DNA from: Bacteroidota bacterium
GTDB taxonomy: Bacteria; Bacteroidota; Ignavibacteria; UBA10030
Direction of reading: 5' to 3'
DNA length: 46,701 bases
Assembly (NCBI GenBank): GCA_021813905.1
Contig: JAKAJH010000026.1
Coordinates: forward strand, 1 to 46,701
Every line of letters begins with the position of its first letter. Positions within the stretch are counted from its first letter, which is position 1. Below the pieces are notes generated by a model. That model saw only the letters and a list, made by a program, of their open reading frames with translations. It searched no databases and was not told where the DNA came from. Made by a program: the position numbers and the translations under genes. Positions 17,547 through 28,506 of this stretch are shown here, piece by piece.

Positions 17547-18398
17547 ATGACTCGCATGACGAGGTGGCGCTGGACCGTGGTGCTCGTTCTTCTCCTGGCA
17601 GAAGGACAGAGCGCTCCGGCGCAAGGCACGCAGTATATCGCGATGATCCCGGTGTTTCACGATCGGCAATGGCGCGGCGGCCTGGAAGGACCGCTCCATC
17701 TTCACCGGCAGCGATTTGTCATGGCCGTGTTCCGAAATGCTGTGGCGGTGTACAGTGAAGCGGAATACGTCAATAACGGCACCTTGCCGATCGAGCAGGA
17801 ATTGGCACTTCCATCGACCGGTCACGATGAGAACGGCGATCTGCCGGGGGGGAGGATCTCGAACGGTCTTCTTGATGTGCAGATGTGGATACAGGACCGG
17901 CGGGTGGAGCCGCAGTTCGTGAATGACGGGATCCAGGACTGGGTTGCGATCCGGGCGAGATTCGAACCCGGCGAGGAGCGAAAAGTGAACGCGCTCTTCT
18001 GGGTCCAGACGTCGTATGCCAACGTTGATTCGATCCCGGGTCTTGATTCGGTGGCAATTCCCGATGGCGACCGGGGATTCCTGGTCGATGTCTGGCACGC
18101 GGCCCCTTGGAACGGCAGCGTCGGTTCGTTGCGCGCCGATGCGATCCTCGAGGACGGCCTGCGTGACCATGATCCCTCGTTCCGTGCTGAACCGGATACA
18201 TACGAAACTCAGGATTCGGTGCTGGTGTGGAGATTCTACGATCTTGAGCCGAGTCAGGGGGATAATATTGAAGTGAAATACTCCAGTGTCGGCAGGTCCG
18301 AGGGAAGTCCGAACACCATGGCATCGCTTTCAGCGATGATGATTGAAACGGTGTACGGCACACTGCGCGAGTATCTCTTTGAACAAAGCGGTGAGTAA
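17547..18398 (+). CDS. Secreted protein of unknown function
   Basis: A 283-residue protein with a Sec signal peptide (about 1-26, ending APAQG). The mature part looks beta-rich, with conserved-looking strings such as AVYSEAEYVNNGTLPIEQELALP and repeated references to charged loops, and no recognisable catalytic motif. ATG 17547 has GGAG eight bases upstream; a GTG at 17469 is in frame but adds no signal-peptide-like sequence. I do not recognise the family. It may share a transcript with the secreted nuclease downstream, although 300 bases separate them. Confidence 0.75.
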   Translation: MTRMTRWRWTVVLVLLLAEGQSAPAQGTQYIAMIPVFHDRQWRGGLEGPLHLHRQRFVMAVFRNAVAVYSEAEYVNNGTLPIEQELALPSTGHDENGDLPGGRISNGLLDVQMWIQDRRVEPQFVNDGIQDWVAIRARFEPGEERKVNALFWVQTSYANVDSIPGLDSVAIPDGDRGFLVDVWHAAPWNGSVGSLRADAILEDGLRDHDPSFRAEPDTYETQDSVLVWRFYDLEPSQGDNIEVKYSSVGRSEGSPNTMASLSAMMIETVYGTLREYLFEQSGE

Positions 18399-18698
18399 GC
18401 GCATCGAGTGCTCATACACCGATGGCGGGAGGGATTGTGTGGAGGAACCGCTGCGATGAATTTGCTTTCAGCCGATCCATTGCCTGTTGCTCCTCGAAGG
18501 GCGCGAGTTCTGATCGCAATGTGTGAATGATGCGAGGAGGGACAACCGGATTCCCGATTTCTCGTGATGATGCTCCCTGGAACAATCCGCTGGCCGCTTG
18601 CTGGTTTGTCGAACTCCATCAATCTCCGGAGTGTCGGTGCCGCCCACTCACTTCGGGACGGGAACGGTAACCGAAGCCAATAGCTGGTCGAAGCTGTG
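18399..18698 (+). other. Intergenic region
   Basis: Three hundred bases without a supported gene. A 24-codon opening (18456-18530) has a good GGAGG site ten bases upstream, but its product resembles nothing known. No terminator or clear promoter is seen. Confidence 0.4.
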
Positions 18699-19337
18699 AT
18701 GATCAAACTCCCCGCAGCAATCCTGTTTTTCGTCTTCTCTGCATTTGCCCAGGAACCCGACACAGTCACGATCTTCCACAAGTATTACTCCACCACGTTC
18801 AGCAGATCCAGGCACTTCCCGGTGGTTGTGAAATACTGGCTCACGCGGGAAATGCTGTCCTGCGATGCGCGCATCAAGCGGACGAATCGGTTCAGAGCGG
18901 ATCCGCAACTGCGGCACGACACGGATCTCGGGAGGGATTATGCCAGATCGGGCTACGACCGTGGCCACAACATGCCGGCGGAGGACAATCGGTGCGATGA
19001 TCAGGGGATGAGAGAGTGCTTCTACTATTCGAACATGACCCCGCAAACGCACAGCCTCAACGCCGGTGCGTGGAAGACATTGGAGGAGCGTGAACGGGCT
19101 GAGGCGATACAGTATGACTCGGTGCTGGTCTGGTGCGGTTCGGTGTCGAGCGATTCCGTCAAGATTGGACGTGTGTTCGTACCCGAATATTGCTGGAAGG
19201 TCCTGTTTGTCAAGGCGACGGCAGACACGGAGGCGTACTCGTTCAGGAATGACAGTCTGGCTTCGAGACCGTTGGAGGGATACCGGATCACGGTGGATTC
19301 GGTCCGCGTGCTGACGGGACGGCAGTCCCTTCCTTGA
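18699..19337 (+). CDS. Secreted DNA/RNA non-specific endonuclease (DRGH family)
   Basis: A 212-residue protein with a short Sec signal peptide (about 1-18) and a beta-beta-alpha-metal nuclease fold of the NucA/Serratia type. The catalytic motif DRGH is at 87-90 (general base H90), and the metal-binding Asn lies in the following YYSNMTPQ segment. It would cleave DNA and RNA outside the cytoplasm. ATG 18699 is preferred over the overlapping GTG 18696. No inhibitor gene is adjacent, which suits a scavenging role better than a cytoplasmic toxin. Confidence 0.9.
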   Translation: MIKLPAAILFFVFSAFAQEPDTVTIFHKYYSTTFSRSRHFPVVVKYWLTREMLSCDARIKRTNRFRADPQLRHDTDLGRDYARSGYDRGHNMPAEDNRCDDQGMRECFYYSNMTPQTHSLNAGAWKTLEERERAEAIQYDSVLVWCGSVSSDSVKIGRVFVPEYCWKVLFVKATADTEAYSFRNDSLASRPLEGYRITVDSVRVLTGRQSLP

Positions 19338-19399
19338 TCGGCTCTGGACGTTGATGAGGCGAATGGCGGAAAACTGCTAACAACTTTTTCCCTTCAGCC

Positions 19400-19483
19400 A
19401 GGAAACCGGCAGCCGGAACTGCCGATTCCCTGCTGAAATCGTCGGGGTGAGAGGATTCGAACCTCCGGCCTCCTGCGCCCGAG
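19400..19483. repeat. Left copy of 84-base direct repeat (tRNA-Pro 3' end plus flank)
   Basis: It matches 28390-28473 at a constant offset of 8990 bases. The first 51 bases are identical. The remaining 33 differ at five positions: four form two compensated base pairs of the tRNA T-stem and the fifth is the anticodon wobble base. Similarity stops sharply at both ends. It marks the left edge of a possible island. Confidence 0.9.
19442..19483 (-). pseudogene. 3' half of a tRNA-Pro (CGG anticodon), truncated
   Basis: Read on the minus strand, this starts in the anticodon loop (CTCGGGC, anticodon CGG) and continues through the 3' anticodon strand, variable loop, an intact T arm (GGAGG/CCTCT around TTCGAAT) and the 3' acceptor strand CACCCCG plus A73. 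The 5' half (acceptor, D arm, 5' anticodon strand) is absent and replaced by unrelated sequence. The intact T-stem with sequence unlike that of the tRNA at 28432 shows it came from a different isoacceptor. Confidence 0.85.
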
Positions 19484-19908
19484 CATCGATATCATATCCC
19501 TGAACGACCAGGGAAATCGTGATGAGAGGTATTTCGCTGCAACAATAATTTGCCTAAGGGCGCCCGAAGCTTCGTCATGATAGCAGCAATGAGTCAGAAC
19601 AGAAGGAGAATGCTCGTTGGTCGAGTCAACTCGCAGGATGGATTGTGCCGATTGTTCATGGTGTTGACATTCAGCATGAATAGGGCTACTATTTGACGGT
19701 TCTGTTCAGAGGGAGGAGTGCTGCGCCCCGGTTCTCCGTGTTGTGATCTGCCCTTCGCTCACGTGGCCGCACCCAGTGATTCGTTCTGACGGACTGCAAG
19801 CGTGCGCAGTACCCGTGACAGATATGAAGGTTGGGGATCCTCTGATGTCGAAGAAGCACACCGATGAAGCCGGTCTTCCGCATTCTTGAGATCTCGCTGG
19901 GGCTCTGA
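19484..19908 (+). other. Non-coding region at the left end of the tRNA-bounded segment
   Basis: It holds a small dyad TCCCTG/CAGGGA (19497-19514), a 39-codon opening (19577-19696) with no usable ribosome-binding site, and the promoter at 19664. A 21-codon opening at 19824 is also unsupported. No integrase, excisionase or transposase fragment is visible. Confidence 0.5.
19664..19692 (+). promoter_or_regulatory. Promoter upstream of the sigma-like/anti-sigma pair
   Basis: A perfect TTGACA, 17 bases, TACTAT. The expected start near 19700 leaves a leader of about 210 bases before GTG 19909. Confidence 0.6.
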
Positions 19909-20931
19909 GTGGAATCCGCTCGGCTTCGCGTGCTGATCGTGAAGGTTGTCGGTGGCTCTGCTTCTGAACGAGACCTCACCGAGCTCGTTCGCTACGCCTA
20001 CCAGATTGCCCACCTGCGATTGCGGCAGCTCCTGCACTCCGGACGACTGCATCTCCATTCGTATTCCATCTCGCTCGAGGGAGTCGCGTTCGACAGCATC
20101 GCTGATTTGTTCAGAAGGGATGAACAAGGTCAGTTTGTGGAGTTGTCGCGCGCCTTCTCGTGTGAATGGAGCGGAGACCGCATCGACGACGATACGTGCG
20201 CGTACCGACTCCGGTCGCTGATCTTCGGAGCCATTCAGGAAGGGATCGCCCGATTGTACCGTGAGTATGATCCCATCTTCAGTAAGATCCTGAGGAACGT
20301 CCGTCTGGCGTTGAAGCGTTCGTCTTCGTATCGCGTGTTCGAGAGGCTGGGTCTGCAGTATGCGTCAGCTGTGCCTGAAGAGGATATGGCCGCACAGTTA
20401 CCTGAGCTGTCGGTCGACGAGCTGGAAAGGTTGCTCACTTCCCGACTTCGGCGGACGCCGTCTGTGCCGAACATCCTTTCGGACCTGTTTGCCGTACTTG
20501 ACAAGCAGCAGTCATACCGCAAATTCTACGGCGTACTTGACATCGCATTGGTTATCAAACGGATCATGGTCCGGGAACGCATCCTGGTCAGTGCAGTCGT
20601 GCAGGATGAGTCGGCATTGCTCGGTCAGGACATTGAGATGATCCTCACACGAAGTCTGGATGACCTTCGATCAGAATTTCGGACGGAATACGTCGACAAA
20701 GGGAAGATTCCCGCCGTCGTTCTTGAGAAATACTTCCAAGCCATCACACTCCTCATCGAAGACGTCTTTGCGCGCAACGATGGCGAAGCATGGGCGCAGC
20801 CCGATTATCTCGCCGAATTCATGCCCGGAATGACCCGGGATGAATATCGCAGGAATCACCGGATGCACTTCGAATATATGGTGCGGGTGGCGCGGAAACG
20901 GATCGGTGATCAGCTCAAGGAGCTTCTGTGA
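19909..20931 (+). CDS. Unrecognised protein, possible sigma-like regulator
   Basis: A 340-residue cytoplasmic protein, predicted mostly alpha-helical and rich in Arg and Leu, with no signal peptide or membrane helix. I do not recognise the family. Helical stretches such as RLRSLIFGAIQEGIARLYREYDP (about 103-125) recall the core helices of sigma-factor region 2, but I see no clear region 4 helix-turn-helix. Its neighbour 52 bases downstream is a zinc-finger anti-sigma-type membrane protein, and such proteins are normally encoded right after their sigma factor. GTG 19909 follows an in-frame TGA directly, so it is the earliest possible start; no ribosome-binding site is evident. Base composition is lower in GC than the flanks. 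Confidence 0.65.
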   Translation: MESARLRVLIVKVVGGSASERDLTELVRYAYQIAHLRLRQLLHSGRLHLHSYSISLEGVAFDSIADLFRRDEQGQFVELSRAFSCEWSGDRIDDDTCAYRLRSLIFGAIQEGIARLYREYDPIFSKILRNVRLALKRSSSYRVFERLGLQYASAVPEEDMAAQLPELSVDELERLLTSRLRRTPSVPNILSDLFAVLDKQQSYRKFYGVLDIALVIKRIMVRERILVSAVVQDESALLGQDIEMILTRSLDDLRSEFRTEYVDKGKIPAVVLEKYFQAITLLIEDVFARNDGEAWAQPDYLAEFMPGMTRDEYRRNHRMHFEYMVRVARKRIGDQLKELL

Positions 20932-20983
20932 TCGGACTTTCAGCAAGCGGAGTTGACTGCGGGGACTGTGGAAAGAAACACCA

Positions 20984-22312
20984 GTGAGACATTTTTCTGA
21001 ACAGGACATTGAACTGCTGCTCAAGGATCCGTCGCGATCCCGTGGGGAGTATGCGGCTCTGCAGGAGCATCTGAAGGAATGCTTCAGTTGCAGGGAAGTG
21101 TACGATGAACTCGAGCGATTCTACGAAGCTTTGTCTGACGCATCGCCAAAGTTGCTGGGCGAACAGAAATCCGAAACATCCTCAATCGTCATTTCTCCTT
21201 CGTACGTTCAGAGAGTGACCGACGGAGCTCTCAAGCGAGCATGGAATTGGACTCGCCAGAATCCCGTCCGAAGCTCAGTGCTTGCGGGTGCCGCGATCGC
21301 ATTTGTAGTGTTCTCTCTCATTCTGAGGCCCCCCGAGGCGCCCCTGGATCCGGCATATATTATCACTAATGACACTTTGGCGCGAGTGCAGGTGTACGCC
21401 GAGAACGGCAAAGAACTGTGGAGTATCCCGTTCTCAAAGGAGGGACAATGGGGACGGCTCGAAAGCGAGATACACGCTCAGCTGTCTGCAATCGTACGGC
21501 TGGATGGAAATTCCGCAAGCGATGTGGTTACGATCATTCCGCCTTCTGAAATTGTGAATGTGGCGCGAGTGCTCGCACTGAATCCGCGAGGCGAGAGGCT
21601 GTGGGAATGGCAGTATGATGGTAGCATCTCATACGGGGACATCCGGTATCCATTTTTCCTTAATCCAGCCTGCCTTCTGACTCTTCCGAATCCGAGCAAA
21701 AGAGAAGCCACGGTACTCGCCGCTTTCACGAACTCTCATTCCCCGTCGTTTCTCGTTCGGTTGAGTGGAAGCGGAAAGGAGCTCGGCCAACTCTGGAACT
21801 TCGGTCACATCCGGGGTATGAAATTCCTGCCGTTGTCGGACAGCCATACTCAGCGAATCGTGATTCATGGATTCGCCGATGTCGACGAAGGATCCTTCAT
21901 CTCAATCGTCGATCCGGCCAAAATCATTTCGGCCACGAAGACCGTTGTGAGCCCGGCATTTCCATTCCCGGAAACCGTTTGTGAAGACAAAGTGGTCCTG
22001 TTGCCGCACCTGCCATTCATGTATTCGACGAAATACCGTTTTGGCTTCACGTATGTCGGCGATGTCACGGATCGAGGATTCTCGGCGATCTTTGGGCGCT
22101 ATGGCAGCCGTGAATGGCTATTCACGTTCGTCTTCGACCGAGAGTTGAACCTTCTCTCAATTCTCGCCACCGACGACTGGCGCGATTTCGCGAGGGAATC
22201 CGGCATCCCGGCCGATATTGAGCTGAGTCGACTTGAGACTTGGGTTCGAACCGAGATGAAGATCTGGGATGGCCACACGTGGAAGAAGGGGGCAGAGCCA
22301 AGAAATCGGTAG
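20984..22312 (+). CDS. Membrane zinc-finger anti-sigma-type protein with large extracytoplasmic domain
   Basis: A 442-residue protein. The cytoplasmic N-terminus has a zinc-binding anti-sigma motif: H3, then H29-x3-C33-x2-C36, the HisX25HisX3CysX2Cys spacing of ZAS/zf-HC2 domains. One membrane helix follows (about 97-114). The 325-residue outer part is beta-rich with repeated blade-like strings (GKELWSIPF, GERLWEWQYDGSI, FLVRLSGSGKELGQLW) suggesting a PQQ-like propeller. It would hold a sigma-type partner at the membrane and release it on an external signal. The start is GTG 20984 with only a weak purine run upstream. The partner is probably the preceding gene. Confidence 0.75.
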   Translation: MRHFSEQDIELLLKDPSRSRGEYAALQEHLKECFSCREVYDELERFYEALSDASPKLLGEQKSETSSIVISPSYVQRVTDGALKRAWNWTRQNPVRSSVLAGAAIAFVVFSLILRPPEAPLDPAYIITNDTLARVQVYAENGKELWSIPFSKEGQWGRLESEIHAQLSAIVRLDGNSASDVVTIIPPSEIVNVARVLALNPRGERLWEWQYDGSISYGDIRYPFFLNPACLLTLPNPSKREATVLAAFTNSHSPSFLVRLSGSGKELGQLWNFGHIRGMKFLPLSDSHTQRIVIHGFADVDEGSFISIVDPAKIISATKTVVSPAFPFPETVCEDKVVLLPHLPFMYSTKYRFGFTYVGDVTDRGFSAIFGRYGSREWLFTFVFDRELNLLSILATDDWRDFARESGIPADIELSRLETWVRTEMKIWDGHTWKKGAEPRNR

Positions 22313-22333
22313 CGACACCGTATTCTCTTCTCG

Positions 22334-22376
22334 GCGGCCCTCATCGTGTTTCTTGACGGTGAGGGCCGCTCGTTTT
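22334..22376 (+). terminator. Intrinsic terminator after the anti-sigma-type gene
   Basis: GCGGCCCTCA (22334-22343) pairs perfectly with TGAGGGCCGC (22360-22369), followed by TCGTTTT. Confidence 0.8.
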
Positions 22377-22495
22377 CAGCAACGAGGAGCCGGTGCGGGG
22401 ATAGTAGGGAATTGCAGCGCAGTAGTTCTTGATACGATCGTTTCGGTACACGGATCACGCGGTGTCAATGCTCTGAATCTACGGTGAGGCGAAAC

Positions 22496-23548
22496 ATGCG
22501 GACTGCCATACTGTTCGTGCTCGTGACAACACTGTTGAACCCGATCGTCCTTTCGCAGACCGCTCGACAATTTTTCGAGAGAGGATGTGAACTCGGGGCG
22601 AAAGGCGACCACGCAGGGGCCATCCTGCAGTATGATCGTGCGATTGAACTCAAGTCGGATTTTGCGCAGGCATACGCGAACAGGGGCGAAGCGAAACGGA
22701 CGATTGGCAAATTGCGGGAGGCGCTGATCGATTTCGATAAAGTACTGCAATTGAACCCGGACGATAGAGTCGGCCTATATTGCCGAGGTGTCGCCCTTGC
22801 GACGCTGGGTGATACTCCGGGTGCTGATAGTGATTTGACGAAGTTGCTCCGATTAGATCCGCAGGATGGAGATGCTCACATCGCGCGAGGATATCTTCGA
22901 TTGCACTCGAATGATCTTGGAGGCGCTTCGAGGGATTTCGAAGCCGCTGTCGCAGCGGATCCGAAGGCGTGGAACGCTTTCTATGGTCGAGCACAGCTCA
23001 AACTGCGACTCAGGGATGAGAAGGGATATGCGGAGGATATGGCCACAACAATTCGATTGAAACCCACAGTCCCTGATCCTTATTGCGAGCATGCACTCAA
23101 TGCGTGCAATTTCGGAATATATGACGAGGCAATCAGGAATGCCACACGTGCCATTGAGCTCGATTCTGCGTACGCAGAAGCGTACCACGTACGAGGCATA
23201 GCCAACGCAGGAGCGAATAACCGCTCGGCAGCGTTCACCGACTTCGCCCGAGCGATCAGGTTGGATTCGACGAACGCGGTCTACATGGCAAACTTTGGAA
23301 GATACCTCATACAGCAGCACGAATACGATTCGGCAATGAAGTATCTCGACAAAGCGCTCGCGATTGACACCACGTTTGCGCCGGCGTGGATGAGCCGAGG
23401 AGTGGCGAGAATCGAATCCGTCCAAGCGGTGGTGGGGACACAGCTCGGCGGAAGGATTTCGAGAGCGAAGGGATGTGCCGACCTCAAGCGCGCAGTCGAA
23501 TTGGGGTTGGAGCAAGCAAGAGTCCTTTTGGAGAAATACTGCAAGTGA
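22496..23548 (+). CDS. Secreted TPR-repeat protein
   Basis: A 350-residue protein with a Sec signal peptide (about 1-21, ending VLSQ) and seven or eight tetratricopeptide repeats with the usual Gly/Ala/Tyr positions (for example AYANRGEAKRTIGKLREAL). TPR arrays mediate protein-protein contacts; no enzyme domain is attached. ATG 22496 has GAGG six bases upstream; GTG 22484 is in frame but would put charged residues before the signal peptide. The gene has its own unit after a terminator. It lies in the tRNA-bounded segment. Confidence 0.85.
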   Translation: MRTAILFVLVTTLLNPIVLSQTARQFFERGCELGAKGDHAGAILQYDRAIELKSDFAQAYANRGEAKRTIGKLREALIDFDKVLQLNPDDRVGLYCRGVALATLGDTPGADSDLTKLLRLDPQDGDAHIARGYLRLHSNDLGGASRDFEAAVAADPKAWNAFYGRAQLKLRLRDEKGYAEDMATTIRLKPTVPDPYCEHALNACNFGIYDEAIRNATRAIELDSAYAEAYHVRGIANAGANNRSAAFTDFARAIRLDSTNAVYMANFGRYLIQQHEYDSAMKYLDKALAIDTTFAPAWMSRGVARIESVQAVVGTQLGGRISRAKGCADLKRAVELGLEQARVLLEKYCK

Positions 23549-23796
23549 GACTGTGCAGCCTGGATCCAGCTAGCTGTTCGTTGAGTCTGTGAGTGCGTTA
23601 ATTCACTGGCCTCCGATTGTTGTTGAGTAGGACGCCCGCCGAACAAATGCCGTAGGCAGGCTCCTATGACACTTGAACTGGTCGGCGGTTTCTGCGCGGC
23701 GAGCGGCGATAGGGATGGACTCAGACATTTCTCAAGCCGAAGCTGACGCTTCGACATTCCGCTGATTTCCCTGATATCTTTTGTTGCAGCACATCC

Positions 23797-26700
23797 ATGG
23801 AGAAGAGTCTCGTGAAAACGATCATAACTCCGATGATCCTTCTGTTCCTATGTGTCCTTGGAAGCGCGCCAGTCGCTGGGCAGACTACTCTTGTTTCATG
23901 GACATTTCATCGTTTGCCTGATGACGTTGTGGCTGACGGAGGCATCGTGACGAATCTCGACAAGACTATTTCCACATCTGCAACCAACCAATCGGGTCTC
24001 ACCTATCCGGCAGGAGCCACGTCAAACTCCATAGCATGTATCGGGTGGGACAATGGGGTCGGGACCAAGTACTGGCAGATCAGTTTCTCAACCGCGGGAT
24101 TCACGGGTGTTGCGGTGTCTTCAAAGCAACAAAGTGGAGTAAACGGTCCGCGGGACTTTGGGCTGCAATACAGTACAGACGGGATCTCTTTCAGCCAAGT
24201 CCCCGGTACAGCCATTGTTGCATCGATTGACTTCGCCTCAGGGATCCTCTCGCATGTGTCGTTACCATCAGAGTGTGACAACCAGCCTAATGTGTACCTC
24301 CGATGGGTAGTGACATCAACCACAGCGGTGAACGAAGGTCCTGTTGTCGCCGAGGGGCAGAGCAGAATAGATGACATTGTGGTTACTGGTGTAGGTCCGC
24401 TCAGCGATGGCGATGGCGTGGCTGCCCTTTCCAACGACGGTCCAACTGTGCTGAATGGAACCTCAATCTTCGAGCCGGCGCATTCCGGTCAATCGGTGAA
24501 ACTGGTTATTTCCGGGACCCCAGCGGGGACATTGAAGCATCTCAGTGTCACCGTCCCATATCAGTGGCTGTGGTCGGGCTCTCTTGTAGATATTGCGGTT
24601 TCCGGAAGTGCAAATCCGATGAATCCTTCGCTCCAAGGCGTCGGCAGTTTCGTCGATCCTTACACGATACTGTACGATGTTAACCTGGGGTCGAGCGACA
24701 CCGTCACAATTGACATCACTAATCTGACCACGCCAAATTCTTCGGATCTTAGCCCTGATGGCAACTATCCCTTTTTGATTAAGACCGCAACCGATAGCGG
24801 TTCGCTCTCTACCGTCGGCACCCCTCCAGTGGCGTATGTGGTGATTCCGATCTCCAACCTGAGGGCGCAAGATGCGTTGGGTATGCCTCTTATTTGGTCG
24901 TCTGTAGTCGCGGTGAAAGGAACTGTTACCGTTCCCACAGGTGTGTATGGGACTACGGTTCTTCAGCTGTATGCTGAGGATGCAACGGGAGGGGTCAACT
25001 TATATCGGTTTGACAATCCACCACCGGCAGTATCAATCAACCATGAGATCTTCGCGAGAGGATATGTTCTCCAGTATTATGGCAATACTCAGGTGAATCC
25101 GCTGACGAAGGCGGACATAATCGACAACGGAATAGGTCAGTCTCCAACTCCTATCACCGTTACAGTGGCTCAGCTCCTTTCGAATCCTGAGTTGTATGAA
25201 GGTAAACTAATCACCGTCCCGAACCTCTCTCGTACTGGAGGAACATGGACGAGTGGTACGTCATGTAGCATGTCTGATGGGGCGAACGCGCTGAACATGT
25301 ATCTGAACGTGTCGACGAATATTGCCTCGTCCGGCGAACCTCCATGGCCGAGAGATGTCACGGGCATATGGTATCAAAAGACCCCGACAACCGCTCCGCC
25401 GTTTGTCGGAGACCCTACGACCTATTTCCTGGCACCTCGAACTGTGGGGGACTTCTCGGCAACCAACCCCGACTCCGGGCTCGTTGCGTACTACCCATTC
25501 ACTGGTAATGCAGATGATTCAAGCGGAAACGGAAACAACGGAACAATCTATGGGGCGACTTCCACGGAAGATCGCTTTGGTAGACCAAACTCTGCCCTCC
25601 GATTCAATGGCATGTCAGACTACGTCCTCGTCCCTAGCTCGACTTCCTTTCCGTCAAGTGCAATTACAACAGCCTTTTGGTTCAATAGGTTGGGATGCGG
25701 TTTGACAGGCGCAGAGAACTATCTGAGCAAAGAAATGTCGTTTTCTACCTATCTGTATACTGACAGCATCCTTGCTGCACAAGTCTGGAAAGGTTCGGCC
25801 GGCGTGTGGAGTTGGTGGACGACGGACCAGAAGATGGCATGTGATGATGCGTGGGTGTTCTATGCCTCCACGTACGACAATGCGACCCGAACTGTTGAAC
25901 TCTATCTTGACGGTTCGCTGGTCAAGACAATTCATGAGTCTGACTCAAGCGCAATTCTACGAACGTCCTCTGAGCCGCTTTACATCGGCCGAAACGGTTC
26001 CGCAAGTGTGTACTACATAAACGGTGCCTTGGATGATATTCGGCTCTACAATCGCGTATTGTCTCCAAGCGAGATCCAGACACTTTATCACGAAGGGGGC
26101 TGGAAGTCCTCAGATGCAGCCATTGCCTTTTCGGTAGATATCTGTGCTACGGCAGGGACCGTGAAGGACACCACAAATATTGCTGCAATTGGTACATCCG
26201 CGGTTGACGGATATGACGCTGGATCGGACATTCCTGAACCACCTCCCGCACCTGGAGACTATATCTCCGTCTATTTCCCGCACCCCGAGTGGGCAAGCAT
26301 TTTGGGAACTAATTACGCTAAGGATGTTCGGGCGAATACAGTACTGTCTGATACGGTAAAACGCTGGTACTTTGATGTCCTTTCAAACGTACAGGATACC
26401 GTGAGCCTCAGTTTTGTGAACGACAGAATCCCCGAAAAGCTGGGTATCTGGCTGACCGATCTGGCAATCGGGCAACGAGTGAACCTCAGAAATAGCTATA
26501 GTTACAAGTACTACAACGGCAATGAAACTGCCCATCACTTCATGCTGGCAATCGGTGACAGCACGCCACCGGCGATCAGCCTGATTCAGCCCAACGGCAA
26601 CGAGATCTGGCAGAGTGGAACGGTGAAGATGATATCCTGGCACAGCAGCGACGGAACCGGAATACTCTCCACGCAGATCGAATCATCGTCCGACACGGGA

Positions 26701-28146
26701 ACGACATACTCGCCGGTCACGCTCTTGGCCGGGGAACAGATGTATGACTGGGCAGTGCCGTCGGCGTATCTGAACAACAGTTATGCGGTGAGGCTGACGA
26801 TGACAGACTCGATGGGGAATGCCTCAAGTGTAGTTTCAGGAAAGACATTCACCATTGTGGGCGACAGTCTGGCACAAGTATCCAGTGCTGGATGGTCACT
26901 CGTAGGGTTGCCGCTGAACCCTCCGGACAGTTCTGCAGTTTCGATATTGGGCGACGATTTTGCCGCAATGCCCTACTATCTCTGGGCCTATGATCAGTCA
27001 ACCGGCTATTCGATTCCGACGTTGCTACAACCCGGAAAAGGTTACTGGCTGGGCATGACCGCCTCCTCCAGCTGGGATGTGACAGGTACCGCCGTGGAGG
27101 CCGACAGCGTAGTCCAGTCCCTGCCGATTGGCTATACGATCATCGCACCACAATATGTCCGCAGTGTGTCGAAATCGAATCTCACGTTTATGAAAGATGG
27201 AACCAGCTACGATTTCGCACAAGCGGTGGCAGCTGGACTCATCGTGAACGCTCTCTATGGGTATCAAAGTGCTGGCTACTTCTCAGCAGATACGATGTCA
27301 GTGTTCACAGGGTACTGGCTCGGTGTACTGCAAAGCGGTATAAGTCTTGTTCAAAGGCCGGCCGCCTCCGGTGCCACGCCTTCAGCATCATCACCGAAGA
27401 TCTCAGCCCCCACACCGAGCAATTGGCAACTGGCCATCAATGCCGCATCATCAACTCTGGCCGATCGCATCGCGCAGATCGGGGCACGACCTGACGCAAC
27501 GGCCGATTTCGATGTGGCGTACGATGTACCGCGGCCGCCGAGGACCCCGGGGAACAAGTATCTCGAGATCTACTTCTTCCATAGTGGCCCTCACTATCCA
27601 GCCCTTCTTGGAACGAAATACGCAACCGACTTCCGGGACGCGGCTAATCCCGCGTGGGAGTTCACGCTGGAATCCAGTGAAGCAGGCTCGGTAACGCTTC
27701 GGTGGGACAATGCGATCCTGACCCAATTAGCCGGCGGCGTTCAACTGATCCTGACGAACCTGGCAAACGGCGCGAGTATCGACATGGGCAGCCAAACCAG
27801 TTACACGTTCGACTATGCCAGCCCAACGAGCTTTGCGATTGCGTCCAAGATCACTGGTGTGGCACAGGAAGGGACGTTGCCGAAGGAGTTCGCCTTGATG
27901 AACAACTATCCGAACCCCTTCAATCCTTCCACTGTGATCCGGTATGCTCTTCCGGCACGGGCACACGTGAGCCTGGTTGTCTACAACGCTCTGGGACAAA
28001 AGGTTGCGGAGTTGGTCAACGCCGAGAAAGAGGCGGGATACTATGATGTGCACTTTGATGCGACCGGGCTGGCTTCAGGAATTTATCTGTATCGGTTGCA
28101 GGCGGGGAGTTTCGTGCAAACGAAAAAGTTGGTGCTGATGAAGTAA
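23797..28146 (+). CDS. Large T9SS-secreted LamG-domain protein
   Basis: A 1449-residue protein. In order: signal peptide (about 1-28), a jelly-roll-like region (30-200), an OB-fold-like region resembling DUF5689 (about 355-555), a LamG/concanavalin-A-like domain (about 560-768, from SGLVAYYPFTGNADD to the LYNRVLSPSEI end), a 150-residue module (about 773-925), an Ig-like stretch, a WSLVGLP segment (about 1030-1190), a second copy of the 150-residue module (about 1209-1352) and a type A T9SS sorting domain (1369-1449, NYPNPFNPST to LVLMK). It should be exported by the type IX system and anchored or released at the surface, probably to bind glycans. No catalytic residues are recognised. The 5' half is visibly less GC-rich than the 3' part. 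Confidence 0.88.
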   Translation: MEKSLVKTIITPMILLFLCVLGSAPVAGQTTLVSWTFHRLPDDVVADGGIVTNLDKTISTSATNQSGLTYPAGATSNSIACIGWDNGVGTKYWQISFSTAGFTGVAVSSKQQSGVNGPRDFGLQYSTDGISFSQVPGTAIVASIDFASGILSHVSLPSECDNQPNVYLRWVVTSTTAVNEGPVVAEGQSRIDDIVVTGVGPLSDGDGVAALSNDGPTVLNGTSIFEPAHSGQSVKLVISGTPAGTLKHLSVTVPYQWLWSGSLVDIAVSGSANPMNPSLQGVGSFVDPYTILYDVNLGSSDTVTIDITNLTTPNSSDLSPDGNYPFLIKTATDSGSLSTVGTPPVAYVVIPISNLRAQDALGMPLIWSSVVAVKGTVTVPTGVYGTTVLQLYAEDATGGVNLYRFDNPPPAVSINHEIFARGYVLQYYGNTQVNPLTKADIIDNGIGQSPTPITVTVAQLLSNPELYEGKLITVPNLSRTGGTWTSGTSCSMSDGANALNMYLNVSTNIASSGEPPWPRDVTGIWYQKTPTTAPPFVGDPTTYFLAPRTVGDFSATNPDSGLVAYYPFTGNADDSSGNGNNGTIYGATSTEDRFGRPNSALRFNGMSDYVLVPSSTSFPSSAITTAFWFNRLGCGLTGAENYLSKEMSFSTYLYTDSILAAQVWKGSAGVWSWWTTDQKMACDDAWVFYASTYDNATRTVELYLDGSLVKTIHESDSSAILRTSSEPLYIGRNGSASVYYINGALDDIRLYNRVLSPSEIQTLYHEGGWKSSDAAIAFSVDICATAGTVKDTTNIAAIGTSAVDGYDAGSDIPEPPPAPGDYISVYFPHPEWASILGTNYAKDVRANTVLSDTVKRWYFDVLSNVQDTVSLSFVNDRIPEKLGIWLTDLAIGQRVNLRNSYSYKYYNGNETAHHFMLAIGDSTPPAISLIQPNGNEIWQSGTVKMISWHSSDGTGILSTQIESSSDTGTTYSPVTLLAGEQMYDWAVPSAYLNNSYAVRLTMTDSMGNASSVVSGKTFTIVGDSLAQVSSAGWSLVGLPLNPPDSSAVSILGDDFAAMPYYLWAYDQSTGYSIPTLLQPGKGYWLGMTASSSWDVTGTAVEADSVVQSLPIGYTIIAPQYVRSVSKSNLTFMKDGTSYDFAQAVAAGLIVNALYGYQSAGYFSADTMSVFTGYWLGVLQSGISLVQRPAASGATPSASSPKISAPTPSNWQLAINAASSTLADRIAQIGARPDATADFDVAYDVPRPPRTPGNKYLEIYFFHSGPHYPALLGTKYATDFRDAANPAWEFTLESSEAGSVTLRWDNAILTQLAGGVQLILTNLANGASIDMGSQTSYTFDYASPTSFAIASKITGVAQEGTLPKEFALMNNYPNPFNPSTVIRYALPARAHVSLVVYNALGQKVAELVNAEKEAGYYDVHFDATGLASGIYLYRLQAGSFVQTKKLVLMK

Positions 28147-28170
28147 GAGATGGAGCAGGGGAGAACAAGA

Positions 28171-28206
28171 AAGGTCCTCATGTAGTCTGAGGACCTTCCT
28201 ATTTTC
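28171..28206 (+). terminator. Intrinsic terminator of the LamG gene
   Basis: AAGGTCCTCA (28171-28180) pairs perfectly with TGAGGACCTT (28188-28197) around a seven-base loop, followed by CCTATTTTC. The 220 bases from here to the tRNA repeat hold no supported gene. Confidence 0.85.
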
Positions 28207-28389
28207 AACTGGGGCAAGCGGCAATTACGACAGCTTTACGTGGACACTGCGATTGGTCGTACGAGGCAAACCGCTTGCTTGTCCAGAATCATGCGTCCAC
28301 TGTGTACAGACGGGCGATAAGGATCCAGGCAATACCTGAAAGATGCAGATCAGCGATTTGTGGGGAGCGCACTCCAAGATCCCTAGTGT

Positions 28390-28473
28390 AGGAAACCGGC
28401 AGCCGGAACTGCCGATTCCCTGCTGAAATCGTCGGGGTGACTGGATTCGAACCAGCGGCCTCCTGCGCCCAAG
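28390..28473. repeat. Right copy of 84-base direct repeat
   Basis: Counterpart of 19400-19483. It covers the 3' part of the intact tRNA-Pro, from the anticodon loop to the end, plus 42 bases of downstream flank including the tRNA terminator. Confidence 0.9.
28391..28417 (-). terminator. Terminator of tRNA-Pro
   Basis: On the minus strand AATCGGCAG pairs with CTGCCGGTT (one T-G wobble) around TTCCGG, ending in a short T run. It starts 15 bases after the tRNA 3' end. The same structure is preserved in the left repeat at 19401-19427. Confidence 0.65.
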
Positions 28474-28506
28474 GCAGGCGCTCTAACCGGGCTGAGCTAC
28501 ACCCCG
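28432..28506 (-). tRNA. tRNA-Pro (anticodon TGG)
   Basis: A 75-base cloverleaf on the minus strand. The acceptor CGGGGTG pairs with CACCCCG, discriminator A73, T8/A9, D stem GCTC/GAGC, anticodon stem CCTGC/GCAGG with loop CTTGGGC (anticodon TGG, plus-strand bases 28469-28471), and T arm GCTGG/CCAGT with loop TTCGAAT. The 3' CCA is not encoded. It reads CCA codons and, by wobble, other proline codons. Confidence 0.97.

Follow-up and report, generated by a model that had tools for sequence, protein, structure and literature searches.

This locus raises the question of which protein is controlled by a zinc-type, membrane-bound anti-sigma factor when the gene in front of it encodes no recognisable sigma factor. 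The window, by which we mean the whole stretch of DNA analysed here (46,701 nucleotides; contig JAKAJH010000026.1 of assembly GCA_021813905.1, from an Ignavibacteria genome of the Bacteroidota), contains two genes on the + strand, separated by 52 bases, whose products we call P1 and P2. On the reading we favour, P1 is a divergent sigma70-type factor that P2, as a membrane-bound anti-sigma factor, holds in check; we put the probability of this at about 0.72. The genes and the predicted parts of P2 are as follows.

19909..20931, + strand: P1 gene, 340 aa, with a GTG start directly 3' of an in-frame TGA.
20984..22312, + strand: P2 gene, 442 aa, with a GTG start; membrane anti-sigma protein.
20984..21157, + strand: predicted class I anti-sigma domain, P2 residues 1–58, with the zinc site H3-H29-C33-C36 and three helices in the model.
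21263..21322, + strand: single predicted membrane helix, P2 residues ~94–113, from a hydrophobic stretch and a helix in the model.
21356..22312, + strand: predicted outer beta-propeller, P2 residues 125–442, from the model, FG-GAP in homologues and a YesW profile match.

The H-x25-H-x3-C-x2-C motif that a preliminary description of this DNA had reported in P2 is exact (H3-x25-H29-x3-C33-x2-C36), and all four residues are invariant among 28 aligned homologues. The Pfam model zf-HC2 gives the P2 of the window a score of 14.5 bits, against a cut-off of 22.2, and is matched by 10 of 18 P2 homologues at E values up to 1 (best, 0.001); all nine recognised zf-HC2 matches of this genome sit just 3' of a Sigma70_r2 gene. 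A profile of the P2 family matches, mostly through its anti-sigma part, genes that lie immediately behind conventional ECF sigma genes (E values from 1.4e-6 to 4e-4; L134, 1.4e-6; L118, 1.9e-5; L129, 2.6e-5; L004, 1.4e-4; L110, 4e-4), and its weak matches among PDB sequences include RsiW (5wuq, E = 0.024) and 3hug_B (E = 0.074). When the profile was confined to residues 1–58 and made solely from P2 homologues, it matched the gene immediately following an ECF sigma gene in 20 of 39 cases. On these sequence comparisons, membership of the N-terminal domain of P2 in the class I anti-sigma domains is well supported. Domains of this class are known to grip ECF sigma factors by a dual interface (PMC7406223). 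A sigma-like client is therefore expected for P2, and P1 is encoded where the sigma gene would normally lie. The earlier view that P2 needs a sigma-type partner is strengthened by the matches behind ECF sigma genes.

The remainder of P2 also has the architecture proposed for it, a single membrane helix followed by a large beta-rich outer domain. The model (pLDDT 82.8) contains three N-terminal helices, a membrane helix at residues 94–113 and mostly beta structure from residue 125 onwards. Beta-propellers match this outer part at Z values of about 14 in VIA-align, the Pfam family FG-GAP_3 was found in 11 of 18 P2 homologues and the P2-family profile matches the lyase YesW (4.6e-8). One homologue of 820 aa (L104:3426-5885) has two tandem copies of the outer propeller region.

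P1 is not recognisable as a sigma factor from its sequence, as the preliminary description had stated: no match to Sigma70_r2, Sigma70_r4 or r4_2 was found in Pfam or NCBIfam, and searches of Pfam, NCBIfam and PDB sequences gave nothing beyond chance. The profile–profile search that had been proposed as a check came out negative, in that P1 profiles built from 45 and 83 sequences had no significant match in hhalign to sets of 9 to 40 ECF sigma factors or to the organism's own primary sigma factor (the positive control reached 96%, and a reversed control scored similarly to the P1–sigma comparison). The best local match to the own primary sigma factor, itself insignificant, falls in regions 2.1–2.2. 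P1 had no match to SigI family models and P2 none to those of RsgI in Pfam or NCBIfam at E values up to 5, no SigI chain was found among PDB sequences with the P1 profile at E values up to 10, and a scan of viral contigs with P1 yielded no relative. Among PDB sequences, both the full-length and the N-terminal P1 profile gave only matches attributable to chance (kinesin light chain and others), and we likewise dismiss a weak NCBIfam sigma match in one P1 homologue (E = 0.035), which aligns residues 6–47 with the C-terminal part of the model. By eye, the conserved GLS--D-A-DCIA-LF-RD (residues 53–71) resembles region 2.2, which we treat as a lead only. The absence of an obvious region 4, also reported earlier, holds in the library searches; residues 295–340, with the C-terminal LT-EEY--HR--LEYL, resemble the helix-turn-helix of region 4.2 by eye, again as a lead only.

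An AlphaFold model of P1, made with 18 sequences (pLDDT 86.3, pTM 0.62), and the family alignment together divide the protein into three parts.

P1 parts, + strand: residues 1–137, all-helical with a predicted sigma2-like fold; residues 142–208, a beta-hairpin and two helices; residues 209–340, helical, ending in the conserved C-terminus.

Foldseek returned no match for this model below E = 0.35, and its searches of the PDB and of viral models gave nothing. With VIA-align, the thirteen top rows are all sigma factors (ShbA, sigma-S, sigma-32, SigB, WhiG, sigma70 and others), and the first unrelated row has a Z value of 5.5. The best row is ShbA (Z = 9.2, r.m.s.d. 13.2 over 108, a flexible fit), residues 1–120 of P1 superimpose on region 2 of sigma-S (6uu7, residues 71–161) at 2.8 Å over 91 residues (Z = 7.3) and sigma70 domain 2 (5yix) matches at 3.3 Å over 90 (Z = 6.4), on a scale in which Z values below about 13 can arise from a common arrangement in helical proteins. 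The comparison gains its weight because all of the top rows agree with what the anti-sigma partner had already led us to predict. For the C-terminal part, matches based on long helices (TRPV and others) have Z values of about 5 or less and were put down to common arrangements. Structure comparison of the predicted model thus favours a sigma2-like fold in the N-terminal part of P1. The preliminary description had left the choice between a divergent sigma class and another kind of anti-sigma client, and had suggested structure prediction against sigma-70 region 2; the top structural matches favour the first branch. The putative sigma homology of P1 thus draws on its predicted fold and its anti-sigma partnership, with no significant sequence match.

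To establish how P1 and P2 are associated elsewhere, we surveyed gene neighbourhoods. Among the 100 P1 entries with enough downstream sequence, a gene with the anti-sigma domain lies directly 3' of P1 in 73, and among the closer entries it does so in 61 of 62, with at least one entry counted twice. These partners are on the same strand at a median gap of 64 bases, and 72 of the 73 keep H-x3-C-x2-C. The pair is present in all 17 loci from the genome_contigs set, most of them titled as Ignavibacteria or Bacteroidetes metagenome-assembled genomes. The two outcomes named in advance as counting against the proposal, a confident match of P1 to an unrelated family and a lack of linkage of the two genes elsewhere, therefore both failed to appear. 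Distant P1 homologues are often without a detectable anti-sigma gene; weak matches at the start of the next gene suggest that in some of these members the domain may have diverged rather than be absent. Covariation between P1 and the anti-sigma domain was slightly above permutation, mainly in conserved columns, in an underpowered sample of only 67 pairs.

Of 61 relatives, 35 carry a P1 homologue, as do 90 of the 245 genomes of the class and 52 of the 395 genomes in a phylum sample, where other classes are represented among the carriers; several paralogous P1–P2 pairs occur per genome. The genome studied here has three copies of P1, of which those on contigs C8 (the window) and C69 are followed by P2 and that on C70 is not. 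Downstream of the C70 paralogue (L100:5048-6145), the nearest same-strand frame has a Lon-type protease domain (Lon_C, 5e-7).

The form of the receptor varies across the family. In some lineages P1 is accompanied by a short anti-sigma protein of 167–302 aa. In a three-gene form (L169–L175 and L101), P1 comes with two further genes, one for a stand-alone anti-sigma-domain protein and one for a membrane propeller that has a new N-terminal domain. Within L169–L175, P1 is only about 235 aa long and is without the C-terminal third, and most of the separate anti-sigma-like proteins are without the zinc cysteines, which L172 keeps. The sensor part is thus variable (propeller, short or split across three genes) while P1 and the anti-sigma domain persist, as in ECF pairs.

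Three other explanations were weighed against this evidence. P1 could be a sigma mimic: a decoy with a sigma2-like fold would occupy the anti-sigma domain and thereby release a genuine ECF sigma factor whose gene lies elsewhere, in the manner of PhyR and NepR. The precedent of PhyR demonstrates that a sigma-like domain can act as a decoy (PMC4814048), P1 would bind the anti-sigma domain yet has no recognised promoter-binding regions, and one P1 family is without the C-terminal third. However, the one-to-one pairing of a membrane-bound P2 with P1 in many paralogous copies is the usual layout of sigma and anti-sigma genes, the receiver domain of PhyR is absent from P1, and the neighbourhoods that were read showed no additional sigma gene next to a pair, apart from an ECF-like frame in L085 at a distance of about 3.4 kb. 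We therefore consider a mimic unlikely.

A second possibility is that P1 has no sigma fold and is an unrelated regulator, tethered to the membrane through the anti-sigma domain of P2. Such a protein would account for a sigma homology that is undetectable by sequence and for the lack of a significant Foldseek match, but it leaves unexplained why sigma factors fill the thirteen best structural rows, and the domain family to which the anti-sigma part of P2 belongs also follows conventional ECF sigma genes; we regard this explanation as improbable. It is very improbable indeed that P1 and P2 are neighbours without a joint function and that P2 controls a distant ECF sigma factor, given same-strand linkage in 61 of 62 closer entries at that short median gap, even though about a dozen sigma genes are recognised in this genome, whose C70 copy of P1 stands without P2.

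If P1 is a sigma factor held by P2, the pair could work as follows. At rest, residues 1–58 of P2 would bind P1 at the inner membrane and keep it off RNA polymerase. The outer propeller would sense a periplasmic or surface signal, after which P2 would lose its activity, probably through stepwise proteolysis with a site-2 protease as the last step, by analogy with other membrane anti-sigma factors; the genome has a match to the RseP-type site-2 protease family (8e-64). Freed P1 would then guide RNA polymerase to the P1 operon and to genes close by, among them probably those for secreted proteins with type IX sorting tails. A candidate target of this kind is the second gene 3' of P2.

23797..28146, + strand: candidate target, a 1449-aa secreted protein (Pfam Laminin_G_3, 3e-22; Por_Secre_tail, 1.1e-7).

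In about 7 of the 17 loci with enough sequence, the product of the first complete same-strand gene after P2 has a type IX sorting tail (L085, L089, L095, L103, L107, L108 and L109; confirmed by Pfam in L085, L089, L095, L108 and L109). By comparison, there are 61 sorting-tail matches genome-wide (TIGR04183), roughly 2% of an estimated 2,700 genes. We regard the sorting-tail genes near the pair as candidate targets of P1. No shared promoter motif above shuffles was found upstream of 92 P1 genes. The window itself contains three TIGR04183 matches (27907, 41819 and 45664).

The pair had been described as having its own promoter and terminator. Of the two, the terminator is probable and the evidence for the promoter is weak.

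19664..19692, + strand: weak sigma70-type promoter-like site, TTGACA-17-TACTAT, 10/12 matches, ~215 bases 5' of P1.
22334..22369, + strand: strong hairpin 3' of P2, a probable terminator, followed by TCGTTTTC.

The stretch folded around the hairpin has an energy of −33.3 kcal/mol (z = −5.75), and two promoter-like sites of the quality of the upstream one were found where 1.5 are expected by chance. The putative island around the pair receives some support: GC content drops from about 0.61 to 0.52–0.55 over about 10 kb, from ~18 to 28.5 kb of the window, and this low-GC stretch (18000–28506) ends near a tRNA-Pro gene (28431–28506, − strand), which fits the expectation for an island inserted near a tRNA gene. 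Just 5' of the pair, at 18696–19337, the window encodes a secreted DNA/RNA non-specific endonuclease (Pfam Endonuclease_NS, 8e-36).

Comparison with known systems places P1–P2 close to the pairs of ECF sigma factors and class I zinc anti-sigma factors (SigW–RsiW, SigR–RsrA), which it resembles in gene order and in the N-terminal H-x3-C-x2-C domain; the anti-sigma proteins of such pairs often have one membrane helix and a variable sensor part, as does P2. P1 differs in matching neither the Sigma70_r2 nor the Sigma70_r4 model, and at 340 aa, with extra middle and C-terminal parts, it is longer than the ECF sigma factors of this genome (~185–250 aa). SigI–RsgI of Clostridia and Bacilli combines a sigma factor that has a sigma2-like N-domain and a C-domain without sigma4 homology with a membrane anti-sigma factor whose outer sensing module controls secreted proteins (PMC10575876, PMC12203970). 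P1–P2 resembles this system in outline, with a predicted sigma2-like domain and a membrane anti-sigma factor with an outer sensor; unlike RsgI, P2 combines a propeller with a class I anti-sigma domain of the zinc type, and P1–P2 occurs in Ignavibacteria and relatives whereas SigI–RsgI occurs in Firmicutes. P1 is filed neither as an ECF nor as a SigI member because the defining sequence matches came out negative. In PhyR–NepR–EcfG, a sigma-like fold binds an anti-sigma factor without being a sigma factor; PhyR has a receiver domain and NepR is soluble, whereas P2 is a predicted membrane receptor.

Our verdict is that P1–P2 is a widespread, unannotated sigma-like family with anti-sigma receptors. 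We lean, at little better than even odds, towards a further step: that P1 represents an unrecognised branch of the sigma70 superfamily, present in several classes of the phylum and in about one-third of the sampled genomes of the class, in which a sigma2 domain is combined with a new middle domain and with a new or extremely divergent domain that reads the −35 element, and which is paired with receptors in fused, short and three-gene split forms, some of them without the zinc site. A search of the literature turned up no work that connects Ignavibacteria with sigma and anti-sigma factors.

Should P1 prove to be a sigma factor, a whole layer of transcription control goes unannotated in the genomes of many Ignavibacteria and their relatives, because no family library recognises the protein. 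It would also be another case, after SigI, of a −35-reading domain that is not recognisable as region 4. If the reading as a whole is true, it would link an outer propeller sensor to the expression of secreted proteins in a group of bacteria with almost no genetics.
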